In this document: piece by piece, positions 4,194 to 60,762 of the stretch
Numbering within the stretch: position 1 is the stretch's first letter
How the letters are laid out: each line of letters starts with the position of its first letter
NCBI RefSeq assembly: GCF_001294455.1
Contig: NZ_LIKT01000002.1
Location: forward strand, 62,001-126,000
DNA length: 64,000 bases
Origin: Phaeobacter sp. 11ANDIMAR09
GTDB taxonomy: Bacteria; Pseudomonadota; Alphaproteobacteria; Rhodobacterales; Rhodobacteraceae
Direction: 5' to 3'
Program-made: the position numbers and the translations under genes
Notes under the pieces: generated by a model
Told to the model about the DNA's origin: nothing
The model's database searches: none
The model's input: the letters and a program-made list of their open reading frames with translations, nothing else

Positions 4194-5051
4194 GTGAATC
4201 ATCAGATCGTCAATTTGTTGCCCGGACTGTATTTTGTGGCAACACCTCTGGGCACGGCGCGCGACATCACGCTGCGGGCGCTGGATGTGCTGGCCTCGGC
4301 AGATCTCATTGCCGCCGAAGACACCCGGTCGCTGCGTCGCCTGATGGAAATCCACGGTGTTCCGCTGGGCGAGCGGCAGGTGATTGCTTATCATGACCAT
4401 AGCGGAGTGGGTGCGCGCGGCAAATTGCTCTCAGCCTTGGAGGCTGGGAAATCTGTTGCCTATGCTTCCGAGGCGGGGATGCCATTGATCGCGGATCCCG
4501 GCTATGGCTTGTCCAAAGCCGCTTCTGAAGCTGGGTATCTGGTGACTTCTGCGCCCGGTGCCACGGCGGTGACCACGGCGCTGGCGCTGGCTGGGTTGCC
4601 AACGGATGCGTTCTTTTTTGCGGGTTTTTTGCCCAATGCGAGCGGTGCACGGCGCAAACGGCTGGAAGAGGTCGCGGCGATTCCCGGCACCCTGGCCTTT
4701 TACGAATCCCCCAAACGGATTGCCGCTTCGGTGGCCGATATGGCCGCAGTGTTGGGCAATCGCCCGGCGGCGCTCTGCCGTGAGCTGACTAAGAAATTCG
4801 AAGAGGTCCGCCGCCTGCCGCTGTCTGAGCTGGCCACCAGTCTGGAAGAGAACCCGGTGAAAGGCGAGATCGTCGTTCTAGTGGATCGTGTCTCAGAAGC
4901 GACAGCAAGTGATGGAGATATTGAGAGCGATCTGCGCGCAGCGCTGATCGACAACTCGGTCAAGGATGCTGCCGCAATCGTCTCGGAGGCCCATGAAATG
5001 CCGCGCCGCAAAGTCTACCAGATGGCGCTGAAGCTGGCGAAAGAGGGCTAA
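4194..5051 (+). CDS. rsmI: 16S rRNA (cytidine(1402)-2'-O)-methyltransferase RsmI
   Basis: RsmI methylates the ribose of C1402 in the 16S rRNA decoding centre using S-adenosylmethionine. The tetrapyrrole-methylase fold is recognisable: LYFVATPLGTARDITLRAL near the start, AAEDTRSLRRLM, GMPLIADPGYGL and PGATAVTTALALAGLP. The GTG at 4194 gives 285 residues, matching the family; an ATG 54 nt upstream adds an unsupported extension that runs into the divergent promoter region. The C-terminus carries the usual HTH-like tail (SEAHEMPRRKVYQMAL). It is followed after one base by yraN. Confidence 0.93.
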   Translation: MNHQIVNLLPGLYFVATPLGTARDITLRALDVLASADLIAAEDTRSLRRLMEIHGVPLGERQVIAYHDHSGVGARGKLLSALEAGKSVAYASEAGMPLIADPGYGLSKAASEAGYLVTSAPGATAVTTALALAGLPTDAFFFAGFLPNASGARRKRLEEVAAIPGTLAFYESPKRIAASVADMAAVLGNRPAALCRELTKKFEEVRRLPLSELATSLEENPVKGEIVVLVDRVSEATASDGDIESDLRAALIDNSVKDAAAIVSEAHEMPRRKVYQMALKLAKEG

Positions 5052-5052
5052 G

Positions 5053-5427
5053 ATGGCCAAGCCCCCTGCCTCAACCGGGTTGCGCGCGCATCTTGCGGGG
5101 GCCGCGGCTGAGGAGCAGGCGGCTAGGGCTTATGCGGCGCAGGGCTATGAGCTGGTGGAGCAGCGCTGGCGCGGGGCAGCCGGAGAGATCGACCTGATCC
5201 TGCGCAAAGGTACGCTGCTGGTCTTTGCCGAGGTCAAGACCGGCCCCAGCTATGAGGCGGCAATTGCGCGGATCAACCCGCGTCAAATGGGCCGGGTTCA
5301 GGCCTCTGCCGCCCTGTTTCTGGAGCAGCAACCAGAGGGGACTTTGAGCGAGGCGCGTATAGATGTGGTGCTGGTTTTTAGCACAGGCGAGGTCGAGATT
5401 ATCGAGAACGCCTATGGTCAGGGCTAG
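5053..5427 (+). CDS. yraN: UPF0102 family protein YraN
   Basis: 124 residues with the conserved endonuclease-like core of UPF0102: AAEEQAARAYAAQGYELVEQ, then GEIDLIL and LLVFAEVKTG (the E...D...EVK pattern of restriction-endonuclease-like folds). Its biological role is not established. It follows rsmI by one nucleotide, as in many proteobacteria, so the two are co-transcribed. Confidence 0.9.
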   Translation: MAKPPASTGLRAHLAGAAAEEQAARAYAAQGYELVEQRWRGAAGEIDLILRKGTLLVFAEVKTGPSYEAAIARINPRQMGRVQASAALFLEQQPEGTLSEARIDVVLVFSTGEVEIIENAYGQG

Positions 5428-5511
5428 CTCTGACCACGGCAATTTGAACAAGGCATATTGAACCTGACTGCTGCCTGCGCCATCTATTGCCAAAGCAAAA
5501 GGGAACCTGCC

Positions 5512-6447
5512 ATGAAAATTGCCTTCCAGATGGACCCGATCATGGGTGTGGACATCAACGCTGACAGCAGCTTTCGCCTGGCAGAAGAAGCGCAGGCGCG
5601 CGGCCATGAGCTGTTTTTCTACCTGCCCGATCAGCTGGCCTATCAGGAGGGACGCATCACTGCGCGTGGCCAGGACATGACCGTCCAGCGGGTGGCGGGA
5701 ACCCCGGCCATCCTGGGGGAGATTCGCGAAGTCGATCTGGCCGATTTTGATGTGATCTGGCTGCGTCAGGATCCGCCCTTTGATATGCATTACATCACCT
5801 CCACCCATCTGCTGGACCGGTTGAAGGATGACTGCCTGGTGGTGAACGACCCGTTCTGGGTGCGTAACTATCCGGAAAAATTGCTGGTTCTGGACTTCCC
5901 CGACCTGACTCCACCCACGGCCATTGCCCGCGATCTGGACACGATCAAGGCCTTCAAGGCCAAGCATGGTGATATCATCCTTAAGCCGCTTTATGGCAAT
6001 GGTGGCGCCGGGGTGTTCCGCCTGGACGCCAATGATCGTAACCTGACCTCCCTGCATGAGCTGTTCACCGGTTTCAGCCGCGAGCCACTGATCGTGCAGA
6101 AGTTCCTGCCGGATGTGAGCAATGGTGACAAGCGGGTGATCCTGGTGGACGGTGAACCAGTCGGGGCGATCAACCGGGTGCCCGCAGCGGGCGAGACTCG
6201 CTCGAACATGCATGTTGGCGGACGCCCTGAAAAGGTCGGCCTGACAGAGCGCGATCTGGAGATCTGCGCCGCCATCGGGCCTTTGCTGAAGGAAAAGGGC
6301 CAGATCTTTGTCGGCATCGACGTGATCGGCGACTACCTGACCGAAATCAACGTGACCTCGCCCACCGGTATTCAAGAGCTGGAGCGGTTTGACGGGGTGA
6401 ATATCGCTGAAAAGATCTGGGCGGCAATCGAGGCTAAGCTTGGATGA
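5512..6447 (+). CDS. gshB: Glutathione synthetase
   Basis: 311 residues from ATG 5512. GshB ligates gamma-glutamylcysteine and glycine with ATP to make glutathione. The N-terminal domain starts [15 protein letters not shown], the family signature. The ATP-grasp domain follows, with [15 protein letters not shown] and [16 protein letters not shown] as nucleotide and Mg-binding segments and [19 protein letters not shown] near the end. An upstream in-frame ATG at 5458 adds 18 residues unlike the family. The stop overlaps the next start in ATGA. Confidence 0.95.
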
Positions 6448-51520: not shown

Positions 51521-53572
51521 TCAGGTCGCGGGTCTCACCTCGACAAAGGTCTCGTGGTAGCAGGCGCCATCCTCGATATCGGTGCGAATATCCGCTGGGA
51601 TCAGCGCATTGACGGTATATCCCGTTTGCGAGCTGCCGCGCCAGGTGCCCTTGGGCGAGTAGAGCACGCCGGGGCGGGTGGCCTGGGTGATCTTCAGCTC
51701 TAACGTGACCGCGCCGCGCGCATTCCAGACCGAGACGAGGCAGCCCTCCGTCAGGCCGCGATCCTGGGCATCCTTGGGGTGCATTTCCAGCACTTCTGGC
51801 CCGGCAGAGGCTGGATCGCTGCCAAAGGTGGCATTGGTCCGTTTGGCGGAGCTGGGGGTGATCAACGTCAGAGGTAGGTCCGGCGACACCGGATCATAGC
51901 GTGGTACGCCAAAGCCATAGCGCCTCTCATACGCCGCGCTGAACAGTTCGATCCGTCCCGAAGCTGTGGCGGGGCGGATGTTCTTGCACATGACCAGCGG
52001 TTCGCCATCCGGGGCCATCATTTCGATGGCGCTGTCCAGCGGGATCTGGCTGGGGCGTTTGCCTGCCAGCTGCGGATGGCTGGCGTCAATGGCCTCATCC
52101 ATCAGCTGGGCATCGCTGGCCCGAAACAGCGGATCCGTATAGCCAAAGCGGGCTGCAAGACGGCGGAAGATCTCGGTATTGGGCAGGCTTTCGCCGACAT
52201 GAGGGATCACCGGGGCCGCCCGTTGCAGGTAGTTCTGACCGTAGGCGCCGTAGATATCGTCGAACTCAAAATGCGAGGCTGCCGGCAGGATCACGTCGCA
52301 ATAGGCCATGCTGTCGGTCATCACCACATCGCAGCCGGCGATGAACAGATCATCGCGCATCAGCGCCCGCATCAGATTGGCCTGATCCGGATGCGTGGCC
52401 ACGGGGTTGTGGTTGTAAATCATCGTGGCCTTGATTGGGATCTCCAGGCTATCATCCTGCAGCACATTGGCCAGATCGACGATGTTGAAGGTCCGGGTGC
52501 CGGGCTTGATCAGGTGATCGCCCTGCAGGCGGGCTTGGGTTTTTGGTGTTGCGCCGCCGGATTTTGCCATGACACCAGCGCCCAGACGCCCGTGGTGACC
52601 CAACAGAGCTGGCAGCGCCATGCCGGCCCGCAGCGCCGAGCCGCCGGAGCGTCCGCGCTCAATCCCGTTGCCAAAGGCGCAGGTCATGTTCTTGGCGGCG
52701 ATCATCATATCGGCGAGGGCGTGAAAATCGGCAGCTGAAACCCCGCAGGTCTCGACAACCTGATCCAGCCCATAGTGCCGGGCCTGTTCCATATAGGGCT
52801 CAAAGCCCGCGACCCACTGCGCGATGAAGCCCTCATCCAGCGCGCCCCGGCGCTCCAGCTCGGCTGCCAATCCCATGGCCAGCACCACATCGGTGCCAGG
52901 TTTGATCTGCAGGTACAGGTCGCATTGCTCGGCAATCTTGATCCGCTTGGGGTCTACCACCACCAATTTGCCCCCACGCGCCCGCAGCTTTTTCAGCAGC
53001 GGCGCCAGATGCAGGTTGGAGACGGTGACATTATTGCCCCAGATCAGCGCCAGATCGGAGTATTCGAGCTGCGCTGGCGGCATGCCGGGGGCGGCGCCAA
53101 ACAGACTGGCATAGGCACCACCCCGCACCCCGCCGCAGAGGGGGCCGCGGTCGAGCATGCTGGCTCCCATCTGGTAAAAGAACCGCCGATCCATTGAGCC
53201 CCCAGCCAGCTCCCCATGGGGGCCGGCATAGTTGAAGGGCAACACGGATTGGGGGCCGTGGGACTCAATCGCCTGGGTGAAGCCCGCGTGGACCATGTCC
53301 AAAGCATCGTCCCAGCTGATCTGTTCAAACTGGCCAGAACCGCGCGGGCCGACCCGTTTGAGCGGATGGGTCAGGCGGGCCTTGCCATGTACAAACTCCG
53401 GATAATAGCGTGCCACCTTGTTGCAGATGACATTGGCCGTATAGGGATTGGCAGTGGAGCCTTTGACCTCTAGCACCGTGCCGCCCTGTACCTTGACGCT
53501 GAGGCTGCAGGTGTCAGGGCAGTCCAATGGGCAGACTGAGGGGAGGGTGGTTATGTCGAGGGGCTGGTTCAT
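51521..53572 (-). CDS. Molybdopterin-dependent oxidoreductase, [4Fe-4S] type
   Basis: 683 residues from ATG 53572 with GGAG upstream. VCPLDCPDTCSL and a fourth cysteine in VICNKVARYYPE bind an N-terminal iron-sulfur cluster. The bis-MGD protein follows: ISWDDALDMV, ALIWGNNVTVSN, VVVDPKRIKIAEQCDLYLQIKPGTD, and a C-terminal binding domain with LTLITPSSAKRTNATFG. It is of the formate-dehydrogenase/polysulfide-reductase superfamily but has no Tat signal, so it is cytoplasmic. The electron donor is unknown, and no partner subunit is adjacent. Confidence 0.88.
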   Translation of the reverse strand: MNQPLDITTLPSVCPLDCPDTCSLSVKVQGGTVLEVKGSTANPYTANVICNKVARYYPEFVHGKARLTHPLKRVGPRGSGQFEQISWDDALDMVHAGFTQAIESHGPQSVLPFNYAGPHGELAGGSMDRRFFYQMGASMLDRGPLCGGVRGGAYASLFGAAPGMPPAQLEYSDLALIWGNNVTVSNLHLAPLLKKLRARGGKLVVVDPKRIKIAEQCDLYLQIKPGTDVVLAMGLAAELERRGALDEGFIAQWVAGFEPYMEQARHYGLDQVVETCGVSAADFHALADMMIAAKNMTCAFGNGIERGRSGGSALRAGMALPALLGHHGRLGAGVMAKSGGATPKTQARLQGDHLIKPGTRTFNIVDLANVLQDDSLEIPIKATMIYNHNPVATHPDQANLMRALMRDDLFIAGCDVVMTDSMAYCDVILPAASHFEFDDIYGAYGQNYLQRAAPVIPHVGESLPNTEIFRRLAARFGYTDPLFRASDAQLMDEAIDASHPQLAGKRPSQIPLDSAIEMMAPDGEPLVMCKNIRPATASGRIELFSAAYERRYGFGVPRYDPVSPDLPLTLITPSSAKRTNATFGSDPASAGPEVLEMHPKDAQDRGLTEGCLVSVWNARGAVTLELKITQATRPGVLYSPKGTWRGSSQTGYTVNALIPADIRTDIEDGACYHETFVEVRPAT

Positions 53573-53735
53573 GATCTGGCTCCAAAGGCGATGTTGATGC
53601 CAGTCTATCGCCCAGAAGGTCATGCCATTAAGTGCCAAAAATAGGGAAATTGACCAGACCAATTGGTCGCGGTAGCGTTGGTCATGCTCAATTCAGCTGT
53701 GGCGCACTCCCGGCAACCCCAATGAGGAATTCCCA

Positions 53736-54215
53736 ATGAAACTTCCCAGACTTCCACTAAAGGGGTCCTGCCTTTGTGGTTCGGTGCATGTCAGTCTGTC
53801 TGCCTTGCCTCTTTTGACTTTGGCCTGTCACTGTCGTGATTGCCAAAAACTATGCGCCAGCGCCTATTCCCTGACCGCAATGTTCCCGGCGGACAGTTTT
53901 TCTGTCACTGGAGACCTGATGAGAGGTGGGCTGCGCAGCAAAGGTCGAGAACACCACTACTGCCGCTCCTGTCTGACCTTTGTCTATTCCCGTATCACTG
54001 GAGCAGATGAGCGGGTGAACCTGCGGATTCCCGTACTCGAGGATGCCGCTGCGCTGCCGCCCTATGTTGAGGTGATGACAGATGAAAAACAGGACTGGGC
54101 TGAGGTTTCTGCCGCCTACAGCTATTCTCGGTTTCCTGAGGGCGCCGATGAGCTAAGGGGATTGATGGAGAGCTATTCCAAGGGCTGGTCGGAGCCTGTC
54201 CAGCCAAAAGACTAA
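53736..54215 (+). CDS. GFA/CENP-V family zinc protein
   Basis: 159 residues. The zinc cysteines are in GSCLCGSVHVSL, CHCRDCQKLCAS and HHYCRSCLTFVYS, the pattern of the glutathione-dependent formaldehyde-activating (Gfa) fold. Most members have no known reaction. It diverges from the oxidoreductase gene. Confidence 0.88.
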   Translation: MKLPRLPLKGSCLCGSVHVSLSALPLLTLACHCRDCQKLCASAYSLTAMFPADSFSVTGDLMRGGLRSKGREHHYCRSCLTFVYSRITGADERVNLRIPVLEDAAALPPYVEVMTDEKQDWAEVSAAYSYSRFPEGADELRGLMESYSKGWSEPVQPKD

Positions 54216-54238: not shown

Positions 54239-54661
54239 TTAGACCATGTGACGAGCCCGGGCGCCGCGCTCAATAGCGGCAGCATGCAGGCGGTCGATGT
54301 TGAGCTCATAGCGCACCTCGGCGAGGAACTCGAGCTCGGTTTCAGCCAGTTTGCCATCGGCAGCGGCCACGTCGCAGGCCAGGGCATAGGCGGTTTCATA
54401 CAGGCGCTCTGGCAGATCATCGCGGATCAGGCCAAACAGGGCTTCCAGCCCGTCTTCCTGCTCAAACAGGTCCAGCACCGTGTTGGAAATCCGCGTCATG
54501 CGGTCGATGTCGTAATCGGCAAAGACTGGCAGCATGTTGACGGCGGATTGAATCTTGATCAGCTCGGCGGTGCGGATGTTTTCGTCCGAGGCAGAGACCG
54601 CCACCATCAGGGCCACAAGGCAGTCCTGCTGGGACATGGATTGGGCGTTTTGCTCGGGCAT
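54239..54661 (-). CDS. TerB-like (tellurite resistance) family protein
   Basis: 140 residues from ATG 54661 with AAGGA upstream. All-helical, with acidic repeats: MVAVSASDENIRTAELIKIQ and ACDVAAADGKLAETELEFLAEV, the paired DG.....E motifs of TerB. These may bind metal. No other ter genes are near, so a tellurite role is not implied. It follows dddW by 140 nt on the same strand. Confidence 0.82.
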   Translation of the reverse strand: MPEQNAQSMSQQDCLVALMVAVSASDENIRTAELIKIQSAVNMLPVFADYDIDRMTRISNTVLDLFEQEDGLEALFGLIRDDLPERLYETAYALACDVAAADGKLAETELEFLAEVRYELNIDRLHAAAIERGARARHMV

Positions 54662-54801: not shown

Positions 54802-55308
54802 TTAGCCCTGGGCCTCTTCAGCGGCGGTAAAGCGATAGGTGATCTGCTCGAAACTGGCCTCAGCAAAGCCATAGGTGAACCGCAGCCCATCAGGGCCGGC
54901 CTGGGTGCCATGTTCTGCATTGGCGGGGACATAGATCGCGACGCCCGGACGGATTTCATGCGGGGTGCCATCAATGGTGACCACGCCCGAGCCTTCGAGG
55001 CCAAGATAGAATTCCGGCGGATCGTGGCGGTGGGGCAGCAGACGACCATGGGGTTCGAACTCGGCAATGCCCAGCACCATATCGCGCGACTTTTCCGAGC
55101 AGCTGTTGATCAGGGTGCGCCAGCGCACTTCGCCATAGGCGGCATCAGTGCCACCTGACAGCGGAACCTGCGCTGCATCCACCACCAGCAGGGTGTCCTG
55201 GGGGGCGTGCGGCAGGTTGGAAGCCTGGTGAAACTGCTCTGTCTCGCCAAGATCAGTGGCAAGTGTTGTCATATCGGGTGCAAAATCCAGGGTTGTTTCC
55301 TGCTGCAT
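54802..55308 (-). CDS. dddW: Cupin protein, probable DMSP lyase DddW
   Basis: 168 residues. AAGGAGG eight bases before ATG 55308 fixes the start. A single cupin barrel holds H93, H95, E99 and Y101 in PHRHDPPEFYLGLEGSG, and H133 in PANAEHG. The offsets (+2, +6, +8, +40) equal those I recall for the metal and catalytic residues of Ruegeria pomeroyi DddW (H81, H83, E87, Y89, H121). DddW splits DMSP into DMS and acrylate with a divalent metal. R. pomeroyi dddW also has a divergent LysR gene, as here. An unrelated cupin with the same ligand set is the main alternative. Confidence 0.72.
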   Translation of the reverse strand: MQQETTLDFAPDMTTLATDLGETEQFHQASNLPHAPQDTLLVVDAAQVPLSGGTDAAYGEVRWRTLINSCSEKSRDMVLGIAEFEPHGRLLPHRHDPPEFYLGLEGSGVVTIDGTPHEIRPGVAIYVPANAEHGTQAGPDGLRFTYGFAEASFEQITYRFTAAEEAQG

Positions 55309-55383
55309 GGTCTGGGCCTCCTTGAGGTCGGTGTGAGTGGATCGCGGGGCTGCGGCTCAATCTCAGATAAGGGGCTTTTTGTG

Positions 55384-55402
55384 TTTCGCTCAATGCGCTA
55401 AA
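55384..55402. promoter_or_regulatory. Candidate LysR operator in the dddW-lysR gap
   Basis: TTTCGCTCAATGCGCTAAA is a 19-nt imperfect dyad with seven of nine pairs matching about a central A. It is 76 nt upstream of the dddW ATG and 34 nt upstream of the LysR ATG. Size and place fit a LysR-type activator site. Confidence 0.4.
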
Positions 55403-55435
55403 ACTGCATCCTAATATACGATGAGGTTATGTTAC

Positions 55436-56329
55436 ATGGAGCGTCTTCCTAGCTTTTCGGGGCTCACAGCCTTCTATGCGGCGGCACGCCATGGTACACT
55501 GACGGCGGCCGCCGAAGAGCTGAATGTTTCGCAACCGGCAGTTTCCCGTCGGATCGCGACTCTGGAGGCAGATCTGGGCTGTAATTTGTTTGATCGCAGC
55601 CACAAGCCTGCCCGGATGACCCAAGCAGGTAAGGATCTATTGCAGGCTTTACACAGTGGCTTTGGCCAAATCGAAGACGCGGTGTCGCAAATCAGAAAAG
55701 CGGCTCAAACGCGGATTGTGACGGTGACGGCCCCCTCTGGGTTCGTCGGATTCTGGCTCATCCCCCGACTGGGAGAGCTGGAGCAGAGCTTTCCGGAGAT
55801 GACGATTCGGATCATAAGCCAAGAGTATGGAGAGGCAGTGCGCCCTGGAGATCTGGTGATCCGCTTTGGCCTGCCCGGTGGGGGGGGCGAGACCGAGACC
55901 CGACTGCTGAGCGATGAGGTCTATGTCGCCGCCAGCCCGCTCTATCTGACGCGCTTGGGGATGACGGCGCAGGACTATGATTTTTCCCGTATGACCCTGC
56001 TGACGATGGAGGCCGCCCGCAGCCAGTGGCATGATTGGCCCAGCTGGTTCAAATCCGCCCATCAGGTGATGCCGCAGGGCGCGCGGGTGCTGGATTTCAA
56101 TTCCTATGCGATGCTGGTGAATGCTGGCCTGGCAGGGCAGGGGATTTTTCTGGCCTGGGGCGGGATTCTGGACAGTTTCATCGAAACCGGGGCCCTGTTG
56201 CGGCTGCAGGCGCCAACCACAACATCGGCGCGGGGCTACTTTGCTGGGCTGAGAGACGGGGCGGCTGCCCACCAGGATGTCCGCCAGATTCTGGACTGGA
56301 TCGTCGAAAAGGCGCATTTTCCCGGCTGA
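55436..56329 (+). CDS. LysR-family regulator, probably of dddW
   Basis: 297 residues from ATG 55436 (GAGG nine bases upstream). The helix-turn-helix part is GTLTAAAEELNVSQPAVSRR, then LEADLGCNLFDRSHKPARMT. The effector domain resembles GcvA-type regulators (GFWLIPRLGELEQSFPEM). It diverges from dddW across 127 nt. In R. pomeroyi the LysR gene beside dddW mediates its induction by DMSP; the same is inferred here. An upstream ATG at 55421 has no ribosome site. Confidence 0.88.
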   Translation: MERLPSFSGLTAFYAAARHGTLTAAAEELNVSQPAVSRRIATLEADLGCNLFDRSHKPARMTQAGKDLLQALHSGFGQIEDAVSQIRKAAQTRIVTVTAPSGFVGFWLIPRLGELEQSFPEMTIRIISQEYGEAVRPGDLVIRFGLPGGGGETETRLLSDEVYVAASPLYLTRLGMTAQDYDFSRMTLLTMEAARSQWHDWPSWFKSAHQVMPQGARVLDFNSYAMLVNAGLAGQGIFLAWGGILDSFIETGALLRLQAPTTTSARGYFAGLRDGAAAHQDVRQILDWIVEKAHFPG

Positions 56330-56456: not shown

Positions 56457-58091
56457 ATGTCTGATTTGCGCGACACCGCTCTCACGAGCAAGGCCTGGCC
56501 GTTTGAAGAAGCCCGTCGGGTGCTCAAACGTTATGCCAAGGGCGCGCCGGAGAAGGGCTATGTGCTGTTCGAGACCGGCTACGGACCCTCAGGCCTGCCT
56601 CATATCGGCACCTTTGGTGAGGTGGCCCGCACCACCATGATCAAAAATGCCTTTGAGGTGATCAGCGATATCCCGACCAAGCTCATCTGTTTTTCCGATG
56701 ATCTGGATGGGATGCGCAAGGTGCCGGGCAATGTGCCCGATGCCGATAGCCTGACGCCCCATCTGCAAAAGCCGCTGACCTCGGTGCCGGATCCCTTTGG
56801 CACCCACGAGAGCTTTGGCCATCACAACAACGCCATGCTGCGCCGGTTCCTCGATACCTTTGGCTTCGAGTATGATTTTTACTCAGCCAAGGAATTCTAT
56901 GAGAGCGGCGCGTTTGACGAGGTGCTGAAACGCGCCGTTGATAAATACGATGATGTCATGGCGATCATGCTGAAGTCTCTGCGCGAAGAGCGCCGCCAGA
57001 CCTATTCGATCTTTTTGCCGATCCACCCGGAAACCGGCCGGGTGCTCTATGTGCCGATGAAAAAGGTCTGCGCCGAAACCTATACGGTGACTTTTGACGA
57101 CGAAGACGGCAAGGAATGGACCCTGCCCGTCACCGGCGGCAATGTGAAGCTGCAGTGGAAGCCGGACTTTGGCGCCCGGTGGGCGGCGCTGGGCGTTGAT
57201 TTTGAGATGTACGGCAAGGATCATAGCACCAATACGCCGATCTATGATGGCATCTGCCGGGTGCTGGGCCAGCGGGCGCCGGAGCATTTCACCTATGAAT
57301 TGTTCCTGGATGCCAATGGGCAGAAGATCTCCAAAACCTCTGGGAACGGCATTTCGATTGACGAGTGGTTGAGCTATGCCAGCGCCGAAAGCCTGTCCTA
57401 TTTCATGTATCAAAAGCCCAAGACCGCCAAGCGGATGCATTTTGACGTGATCCCCAAGGCGGTGGATGAGTACCACCAGCAGCTGCGGGCCTATGCAACC
57501 CAGGACCAGAAGGCGCAGCTCAACAACCCGGTCTGGCATATCCATGCAGGCGATGTGCCGCAGTCGGATATGGTGGTCTCTTTCTCGATGCTGCTCAATC
57601 TGGCCTCGGCCTCCAGCGCTGAAGACAAGCAAACCATGTGGGGCTTTATCAATAAATATGCCCCTGATGCCACGCCCGAAACCCACCCCGGCATGGATCA
57701 GGCCGCAGGTTTTGCGGTGGCCTATTTCAACGACAAGGTAAAACCAACCAAGGTCTTCCGTGCGCCCAGTGACCAAGAGCGTGTGGCGCTGCAGGATCTG
57801 GCCGATGCGTTGAAATCTGCGGATGCGGCCCTGGCGGCGATTGCCAAGAAGAATGACATTGTCGGCAAGGATGATGCGCTGCCAGCGGCGGATTTCGCCG
57901 ATGAGGAATTCCTGCAATCGGTGGTCTTTGCCATTGGCAAGATCCATGGTTTCGAGCCGCTGCGCGATTGGTTCACCGCGATCTACGAAGTCCTATTGGG
58001 CGCCTCACAAGGCCCGCGTTTTGGTGGCTTTATCGCGCTGTATGGCGTCAGCGAGACGATTGACCTGATCGAGAAAGCTCTGGCGGACTGA
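56457..58091 (+). CDS. lysK: Lysyl-tRNA synthetase, class I
   Basis: 544 residues. Class I LysRS replaces the common class II enzyme in many alphaproteobacteria and archaea. The HIGH motif is [16 protein letters not shown] and the KMSKS motif [16 protein letters not shown] eight bases before ATG 56457 fixes the start. The cysteine-rich zinc module of some members is not obvious. A strong terminator follows 30 nt after the stop. Confidence 0.95.
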
Positions 58092-58367: not shown

Positions 58368-58476
58368 CGATAGGGGGGGGTGCGGGGGCGGCGCGCGCCC
58401 TACTGGGAAAGTTTTCAGCTCGGGCCTCTAGCTCTTGGCGGCGTTGTGCATGGGCGCTGTTGGAAAGGGTTTTGGG

Positions 58477-60762
58477 ATGAACAAGGTGATTACGGCGGGT
58501 CTGGAGTTGATGCCACCAGAGTTCGAGGCGGGGCTGGATGTCTGGTCGAGCGGAGATGGCACGCCTGGGTCCGACACATATGACGGCGCGGCCAATGCGG
58601 CCATCGTGGTGGCGGATGCAGATTTTGCGGGCTGTCTGGAACTGCAGAAGCTGGAGGCGACCCAGCGGCTGCGCTACATGGGGAAGACGCCGCTTTTGCC
58701 GGGGTGTTATCTGCAGGTGAAGGCCCGGATCAAGGCGGTGAGCGGCGCCCTGCCGACAGTGCGGATCGCGGCCTGGGCCGGGGATAGCAGTGAGTCTCAT
58801 CTTTCAGGGGTCACCGAGGTGGGGAGCAGTACGACGCTGACCTCCTATGGATCTGTGGTCGAGGTCAGCGCCATCATTGGCATTGGCGATCGAACGGGTG
58901 TGGACATGGCCTGGGGCTTGGCGGCGCGATATGGTCATTTTGGACTGGACCTGATTGGCCCCAATGGGGGGGTGGTTCGGATTGACGATATTGAGATCAC
59001 GGATCTGACCAGCGCCTTTCTGCGGGACATGGTTTCGGTTGTGGATGTCGTGGATTTTGGTGCTGTCGGGGATAATGTCACCGATAACACTGCTGCCTTT
59101 GAAGCGGCGGATGCGGCGGCTGCGGGGCGACAGATCCTGGTGCCTGCCGGGCAGTTCTTTTTGGCGCAGACGGTTTCATTGAACAATCCGGTGCATTTTC
59201 AGGGCAGCCTGCGGATGCCGGTGGACCGGATGCTCTTGCTGCGCAAAAACTTTGATTTCGCGACCTACGCCGCTGCCTTTGGCAATGAAGAGGCAGGGTT
59301 CAAGAAAGCCTTTCAGGCGCTGTTGAATTCATCGGATCACGAATCCCTGGATCTGGGAGGGCGCATGGTGACGGTGACTTCGCCGATCGACATGCAGGCA
59401 GCGGTGCCCAATCGCAGCTCCTATTCGACACGGCGGGTGATCCGCAACGGGCAGTTTTCGGCCTCGGGCGGGGCGGCCTGGGATACGCAGGTCTGGAGCG
59501 AGCAGGCCACCTATGATCCCAATGATCCGCGCAAGTTGAAGGCGGTCAGCAATATCGCCAATATCCCCGTTGGGGCCTTGGTCGAGGGCAGCGGCGTTGG
59601 GCGCGAGATCTATGTCCGCAGCAAGAATACCGGCGCCGGTGAGCTGACCCTGAATGCGCCGCTCTATGATGCGTCTGGCACCCAGGTGTTTACCTTCAAG
59701 GATTTTAAATATCTGCTGGATTTCAGTGGCTTTAGCGCGTTGAGCAAATTTGGCATGACCGAGGTCGAGATCCAGTGCAACTCGCATTGCTCAGCTCTAC
59801 GGCTGCCTTCGGCGGGGACGGTGTTCAGTCTGGACCATTGTTTCGTCTCGCGCCCCAAGGATCGCGGGATCACTTCGATCGGTTCGGGGTGTCAGGGCAT
59901 TCTGGTGGACAATTGCCAGTTCCTGTCGGCGGAGGAGGCCGAAACCGTGCCCAACCGCAGCAGCGTTGGGATCAACGTCAATGCCAATGATGCCAAGCTG
60001 CGCAATAACCGGGTGACCAAGTTCCGCCATTTTGCCCTGCTGGCCGGGGCCAACAATACGATCACCGGTAATCACTTTTTCCAAGGAGATGGGGTGGCCG
60101 ACGGGGTGCGGACGGCAGGGCTGGTCATGGCCTCGACCTATTGTGCTTCGACGATCTCGGACAACTATGTTGATAATTGCTTTATTGAGTGGACCAATGA
60201 GCAGGATCCAACCCCGAATTTCACCACCGGGTTTTCGTTTTCGGCGCTGTCAATTACCGACAATGTGTTCTTGTCCAGCGATGTCGCCCCCTGGTTCAGC
60301 TATGTGGTGATTAAGCCCTATGGCAATGGGCATTTCCTAAATGGGGTCAGCATTTCAGGCAACAAGTTCCGTTCGATCAATGGCAATATCGACCGGGCGG
60401 ATCGGGTGGATACAAGTTTCTCTGACCTGGACTTTAGCCGCAGCAAATCGGTGTTCTTTGAAGGCAATACCTTTCATGGGATCACCACTCCGGTTGCCAG
60501 CCCTATGCGGATTCGCCATGAACAGGCAACGGTTGCCAGTAGCTGGACGGTTTCGACCGCCGGTGCGATGCCGTTTCTGGGACGCGCGCGGGCGGTGGAT
60601 GCGGTGGTGGCCATTGGTCCAATGCGCAACTCCAGCGGCACCTATAGATATCCGCGCCCCTGGGTGCAGCTGGAACAGGGCAGCAACAAGGATGAGATCC
60701 GGTTGAACTGGGGGGAAAGCCTGCGCGGCGAAGTGCAGGTGGTAGTGCGGGTCGACAAATAG
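58477..60762 (+). CDS. Right-handed beta-helix (pectate-lyase-like) protein, possible GTA head-spike
   Basis: 761 residues from ATG 58477. No signal peptide. The N-terminal 180 residues form a beta-rich module (AAIVVADADFAGCLELQK, LRYMGKTPLLPGCYLQVKAR). VDFGAVGDNVTDNTAAFEAA, near residue 195, is the entry of pectate-lyase-3/GH28-like helices, and a beta-helix with NxF/NxI turns fills the rest. Such trimeric helices are usual in phage tail spikes. From memory, this family in Rhodobacterales includes GhsB, the capsule-binding head spike of the gene transfer agent; that match is inferred. It stands alone. Confidence 0.65.
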   Translation: MNKVITAGLELMPPEFEAGLDVWSSGDGTPGSDTYDGAANAAIVVADADFAGCLELQKLEATQRLRYMGKTPLLPGCYLQVKARIKAVSGALPTVRIAAWAGDSSESHLSGVTEVGSSTTLTSYGSVVEVSAIIGIGDRTGVDMAWGLAARYGHFGLDLIGPNGGVVRIDDIEITDLTSAFLRDMVSVVDVVDFGAVGDNVTDNTAAFEAADAAAAGRQILVPAGQFFLAQTVSLNNPVHFQGSLRMPVDRMLLLRKNFDFATYAAAFGNEEAGFKKAFQALLNSSDHESLDLGGRMVTVTSPIDMQAAVPNRSSYSTRRVIRNGQFSASGGAAWDTQVWSEQATYDPNDPRKLKAVSNIANIPVGALVEGSGVGREIYVRSKNTGAGELTLNAPLYDASGTQVFTFKDFKYLLDFSGFSALSKFGMTEVEIQCNSHCSALRLPSAGTVFSLDHCFVSRPKDRGITSIGSGCQGILVDNCQFLSAEEAETVPNRSSVGINVNANDAKLRNNRVTKFRHFALLAGANNTITGNHFFQGDGVADGVRTAGLVMASTYCASTISDNYVDNCFIEWTNEQDPTPNFTTGFSFSALSITDNVFLSSDVAPWFSYVVIKPYGNGHFLNGVSISGNKFRSINGNIDRADRVDTSFSDLDFSRSKSVFFEGNTFHGITTPVASPMRIRHEQATVASSWTVSTAGAMPFLGRARAVDAVVAIGPMRNSSGTYRYPRPWVQLEQGSNKDEIRLNWGESLRGEVQVVVRVDK

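Follow-up and report, generated by a model that had tools for sequence, protein, structure and literature searches.

A cupin gene of Phaeobacter sp. 11ANDIMAR09 is an orthologue of dddW beside its usual divergent LysR-type regulator

The question raised by this locus is whether a small cupin gene, transcribed divergently from a LysR-type regulator gene, encodes the DMSP lyase DddW, as a preliminary description had proposed. The locus lies in a window of 64,000 nucleotides, which is the whole stretch of DNA that was analysed, and its central features are the following.

54802 to 55308, minus strand: dddW, predicted cupin DMSP lyase of 168 aa (open reading frame, identity, residues and tree)
55317 to 55322, minus strand: AGGAGG, ribosome-binding-like site (read from the sequence)
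55436 to 56329, plus strand: predicted LysR-type regulator of dddW with 297 aa when read from the conserved ATG (HTH_1 and LysR_substrate; 72% identical to the R. pomeroyi LysR protein encoded beside dddW)

The start of dddW at 55308 is backed by the AGGAGG sequence, which sits 8 bases 5′ of the ATG. The LysR open reading frame covers 55421-56329 on the plus strand, and its start was put at the second ATG, 55436, because the alignment with the R. pomeroyi protein begins at residue 1.

To describe the relationship of the window cupin to known DddW proteins, it was compared with DddW of R. pomeroyi SZCCDBG043 (locus L085), a strain other than the characterised DSS-3, and was found to be 66% identical to it (99 of 151 columns). 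The dddW gene of SZCCDBG043 has 1 and 2 mismatches to the published DSS-3 dddW primers. The window cupin is also 96% identical to a protein of Roseobacter sp. MED193 (locus L059), and MED193_09710 is named DddW in a figure legend of PMC4437653. The 152-aa protein of SZCCDBG043 has H81, H83, E87, Y89 and H121, which are the positions given as key residues of R. pomeroyi DddW in the excerpted text of PMC4437653. Residues H93, H95, E99, H133 and Y101 of the window cupin align with H81, H83, E87, H121 and Tyr89 at equal spacing. Hence, all five residues pointed out in the preliminary description are present, and the spacing which it had given for R. pomeroyi DddW (+2, +6, +8, +40) agrees both with that paper and with the R. 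pomeroyi protein. The likeness to DddW of R. pomeroyi (SPO0453) and of MED193 (MED193_09710) covers the spacing of ligands and tyrosine, the divergent LysR gene and the flanking genes, while the window protein differs from R. pomeroyi DddW by 8 additional residues at the N-terminus, 4 at the C-terminus and a 4-residue insertion near residue 37.

The gene order around the cupin was compared among related loci, with two syntenic flanks as landmarks.

54239 to 54661, minus strand: TerB-like gene (Pfam TerB, 4e-6)
56457 to 58091, plus strand: lysK, lysine--tRNA ligase gene (NCBIfam equivalog above cut-off)

A contig scan for relatives returned 49 related loci, and in 37 of them a LysR homologue of at least 40% identity diverges from the cupin gene. 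Among loci L059-L093 the LysR gene is present in all 35, and in 34 of these lysK adjoins the LysR gene and TerB adjoins dddW, while L090 is without both. The order pectate-lyase-like, lysK, LysR, dddW, TerB, D-Ala-D-Ala-carboxypeptidase-like is common to the window and R. pomeroyi, which bears out the parallel that had been drawn between this divergent LysR gene and the one at the R. pomeroyi dddW locus. The window differs in that TerB is separated from the carboxypeptidase-like gene by two further genes, one for a molybdopterin oxidoreductase and one of GFA type. They lie at 51521-54215, neither was seen at the locus of R. pomeroyi, and only part of the genus has the GFA-type gene. The pectate-lyase-like protein of the window (58435-60762, 775 aa; PF12708, 6e-8) is encoded by a gene which adjoins lysK in most roseobacter dddW loci examined.

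In a tree of 69 cupin rows, all 37 LysR-linked rows, the window included, fall on one side of a single branch with support of 100/98, which was recovered in 100% of 200 bootstrap trees. This group contains R. pomeroyi, MED193, Leisingera, Shimia and Nioella, and it can be called a clade provided that the root falls among the rows without a LysR gene, where midpoint rooting places it. Rows L098, L012 and L013 form long branches of unsure placement, and the tree leaves aside L095 (cut at a contig end), L107, L001-L010, L014 and L031-L039. Because sequence, tree, divergent LysR gene and gene order all agree, the cupin gene is considered orthologous to R. pomeroyi dddW. We estimate at roughly 0.93 the probability that the window cupin is a metal-dependent DMSP lyase orthologous to R. 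pomeroyi DddW, and that the LysR protein is likewise orthologous to the divergent regulator of R. pomeroyi dddW. The identification as dddW is thus upheld by the identity to R. pomeroyi, the 100/98 tree group and the shared locus. The gene is an ordinary roseobacter gene of a known enzyme family beside its usual regulator, and it is not new: DddW has been characterised (PMC4437653), and a Pseudophaeobacter dddW is already in print (PMC9327192). From its presence, release of the climate-active gas DMS from the algal compound DMSP is predicted for this marine bacterium.

To obtain a picture of the predicted active site, an AlphaFold model of the window cupin was used (mean pLDDT 82.4), in which residues 41-160 lie in blocks of pLDDT 90 or more, while the first 40 residues are unreliable. 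The six best Foldseek matches to this model were all DddK, the best of them with an E-value of 2.3e-11, a TM-score of 0.88 by target length and an rmsd of 1.7. The best solved match by sequence was also DddK (1e-14, and 9.5e-26 with a 43-row profile), and R. pomeroyi DddW has no solved structure among the structure-database matches. Hence, both by sequence and by fold the best solved match was a lyase rather than a characterised non-lyase cupin, the outcome that would have spoken against the preliminary description. As closest homologue DddK was rejected, since R. pomeroyi DddW is far closer (66% versus about 30% identity). DddK of Pelagibacter (PDB 6a53, 5tfz) resembles the window cupin in fold, metal ligands, the equivalents of Tyr64 and Tyr122, and aromatic cage. 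According to the excerpts of PMC10686828, the metal ligands of DddK are His56, His58, Glu62 and His96, Tyr64 acts as the base, the carboxylate is bound by Tyr122, and a cage of Tyr21, Trp26, Phe108, Trp110 and Phe117 surrounds the sulfonium. The four ligands correspond to the candidate metal ligands H93, H95, E99 and H133 of the window cupin, the two tyrosines to Tyr101 and Tyr158, and the cage to Y58, W63, F144, Y146 and F153. Thus all substrate-pocket positions mapped from DddK are kept or aromatic in the window cupin, with the difference that Trp110 of DddK is replaced by Tyr146.

The mechanism proposed here draws on published DddW and DddK work, from which we infer activity, metal, substrate and inducer; the lyase activity of the window cupin itself is thus a prediction from its orthologue. 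A metal ion, probably Fe(II), would be bound by H93, H95, E99 and H133. The carboxylate of DMSP would contact the metal and Tyr158, while its sulfonium would sit inside the cage of Y58, W63, F144, Y146 and F153. Removal of the alpha proton by Tyr101 would then lead to elimination, with dimethyl sulfide and acrylate as the products. The same elimination could act mainly on a different substrate in the cell, for example DMSOP, which would give DMSO and acrylate. Cloned DddW does cleave DMSOP as well, and a similar catalytic efficiency on DMSOP and DMSP is reported for DddW only (excerpts of PMC10686828). However, DMSP is both a substrate and an inducer of the characterised orthologue (PMC4437653, PMC9769926), and both compounds could be used, so that cleavage of DMSOP would be more an addition to the DMSP reaction than its rival. 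We therefore regard a main substrate other than DMSP as very unlikely.

The specificity of these residues was assessed against 14 other cupins from related genomes. Across the 38 DddW-group rows of the residue table there is no variation at W63, H93, H95, E99, Y101, H133, F144, Y146 or F153. Position 58 holds Y or F in 37 rows, and Y158 is found in 37, the remaining row ending at a contig end. This table leaves aside L001-L010, L014 and L031-L039, which are mostly copies of named loci, and keeps L095. In the 14 other cupins H93 is present in 12, H95 in 14 and H133 in 14, while E99 is found in just 3 and Y101 in just 2; these counts rest on the five commonest letters of each column, so that rare letters are partly absent. 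Since the ligand histidines are generic among cupins, their spacing alone is not diagnostic, and, as judged from these alignments, Tyr101 is the telling residue rather than the histidine spacing. The other pocket positions mostly differ in the 14 cupins, except that the position aligned with Y158 is Tyr in 8, so that Y158 is a weak mark of membership in DddW.

The database models were compared with these results. Above cut-off, Pfam assigned only Cupin_2 and AraC_binding to the window cupin, while NCBIfam gave nothing above cut-off either for it or for R. pomeroyi DddW; the best NCBIfam entry, (R)-mandelonitrile lyase, scored 22 bits where its cut-off demands 140 and was not a match. DddQ and DddL are cupin DMSP lyases with the same His/His/Glu/Tyr/His set as the window cupin. 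Compared with DddQ as described in literature excerpts, the window cupin has Leu90 at the place of the first DddQ tyrosine, Tyr120, 3 residues ahead of His123. Their family, PF16867 (DMSP_lyase), was considered and set aside, as the window cupin scored 22.7 bits against a gathering cut-off of 27. Because R. pomeroyi DddW itself is absent from the PF16867 matches at E 0.01, this model is uninformative for DddW. These generic annotations and the generic histidines are what a metal-binding, non-lyase cupin beside a LysR gene by happenstance would also give, but orthology, tree, LysR gene and gene order all link the cupin to R. pomeroyi dddW, the protein retains Tyr101 together with the aromatic cage, and the best solved match is DddK, which makes such a chance arrangement extremely improbable.

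To understand how the regulator could act on dddW, the intergenic region was compared across 36 of 37 orthologous regions (the window and 35 loci); L078 was dropped because its start was overcalled, and L098, whose LysR protein is 40% identical, was left out. Two conserved blocks were found.

55416 to 55431, minus strand: most conserved intergenic block, CATAACCTCAnCGTAT (36 orthologous regions)
55391 to 55406, minus strand: second conserved intergenic block, CAnnTTTAnnnnATTG (36 orthologous regions)

In the first block 15 of the 16 columns are kept in 32-36 of the 36 regions. In the second, which overlaps a 19-nt dyad at 55384-55402, the same holds for 12 of 16 columns, including all 10 named ones. 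We suggest that at these two blocks the regulator and RNA polymerase could contact the DNA, and the CATAACCTCAnCGTAT block is the proposed contact of the LysR protein. The dyad had been mentioned in the preliminary description as a feature lying between the two genes. It is present as letters, with 7 of 9 arm positions complementary, but its degree of matching is within chance, and the nearby CATAACCTCAnCGTAT block is better conserved. Among 300 mononucleotide shuffles of the intergenic region, 9% match the dyad at that length, 18 lengths having been scanned, and an inverted-repeat search requiring an exact 6-base seed listed no inverted repeat. The dyad was therefore set aside as evidence. 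In the 36 aligned regions its arms keep a mean of 4.0 of 9 pairs, compared with 1.3 to 2.8 pairs at 32 of 33 other offsets, while one other offset ties with it. The dyad is thus weakly retained rather than a firm element, and the symmetry that persists comes largely from the conserved TTTA and ATTG. A scan of 55250-55480 for sigma-70 promoters and terminators found nothing. By analogy with R. pomeroyi, in which dddW shows the largest rise with DMSP of the cleavage genes and rises with H2O2 as well (excerpts of PMC9769926), the LysR protein, probably through the CATAACCTCAnCGTAT block, would raise dddW expression in the presence of DMSP or a breakdown product. The genomic signature of dddW proper that can be added to earlier work consists of the divergent LysR gene, the CATAACCTCAnCGTAT block and the lysK-TerB locus.

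The occurrence of dddW was also considered. Of the 12 genomes in the genus set, among them that of the window, 10 carry a near-full-length dddW, while in genome G006 the only cupin match is weak and unrelated. In genome G010 a remnant of the dddW locus (L014, about 1267-1647) lies between lysK and TerB; its middle is missing, and the start of the LysR gene adjoins the end of the cupin gene. A search of plasmids returned 7 records, every one below 60% identity. DddW had been called the rarer enzyme beforehand, which is consistent with its report in less than 0.5% of bacteria in the seawater studied (PMC9327192), but not with its description as relatively common in marine bacteria (PMC5395565), both as given in excerpts, or with its presence in most of the genus set. 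Heavy-fraction dddW was assigned to Phaeobacter and Pseudophaeobacter (PMC9327192). According to excerpts of the same paper, a Pseudophaeobacter isolate released 558 +/- 260 nmol DMS per mg protein per hour, and for the reference strain P. arcticus DSM 23566 dddW is the only lyase listed; the lyase homologues of the isolate were taken from this reference strain rather than from the isolate itself.

The window's genome carries further genes related to DMSP. It contains acuI (450 bits, cut-off 297), and the best solved match of the gene adjoining it is 3tfh (9.2e-111), which we take to be the DMSP demethylase DmdA. This probable dmdA-acuI pair lies at 376-1479 and 1492-2487 of locus L122, and downstream of it a look-alike of BCCT-type transporters was noticed by eye. 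A separate DddQ-like gene elsewhere in the genome scores 66 bits with PF16867, above the cut-off, and its best solved match is 5cu1, named a DMSP lyase (5.8e-51), with DddQ entries below. With this gene present, DddW would not be the only possible source of DMS released by whole cells. The DddQ-like gene (L108, 1333-1941; near 227837-228202 of contig G000:C2, outside the window) is a second candidate for a cupin DMSP lyase, and its neighbours, judged only by eye, resemble FabA and Fur.

Matches at E 1e-10 or better were found in 59 of 394 genomes of the family, and these combine dddW with a second set of cupins, here called sister cupins, which fall outside the LysR-linked group in the tree. 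The set comprises 27 rows, which represent 26 distinct proteins because L042 and L094 are duplicates, and its members are 51-66% identical to R. pomeroyi DddW. All 27 rows keep W63, H93, H95, E99, Y101, H133, Y146, F153 and Y158, while F144 is kept in 22, and 24 have F or Y at position 58. The sister cupins thus have nearly all pocket residues of DddW in a locus which is usually different (YeeE/YedE, MFS, PrmA, RuvC), where the cupin gene is as a rule flanked by a YeeE/YedE sulfur-transporter gene on one side and the MFS gene on the other. Because this set keeps nearly the same pocket, the pocket alone is no proof of substrate. In the wide context of 18 sister loci, an MFS gene lies downstream of the cupin in 14, YeeE/YedE is present in 13 and prmA in 15, and three Loktanella loci are without any of these. 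The excerpts of PMC9327192 give a cut-off of 50% identity, 70% coverage and E 1e-30 for reference strains, and all 27 sister rows pass it against R. pomeroyi DddW, with E-values that are generous as they come from a small local search. In the same paper a Loktanella DddW-like protein (54%) clusters apart from ratified DddW, and excerpts of the literature on DddW, DddU and DddW-like proteins mention no activity for the sister set. These data add a caution, since proteins that pass the published cut-off for DddW nevertheless group outside it in the tree.

The sister cupins, which are found in many Rhodobacterales including Paracoccus, could tentatively be seen as an unrecognised family of lyases acting on DMSP or on a similar sulfonium or betaine compound, which the MFS protein would transport, although we consider this somewhat doubtful. 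If it were true, cupin DMSP lyases would be more widespread than currently counted; otherwise, a threshold of 50% identity for DddW would lead surveys to over-count it. No sister cupin was found in the window's genome at E 0.001, and this genome does carry the MFS gene of the sister locus (72%). In one example of a sister locus, L114, the cupin gene lies at about 5795-6163 and the MFS gene at 4438-5667.
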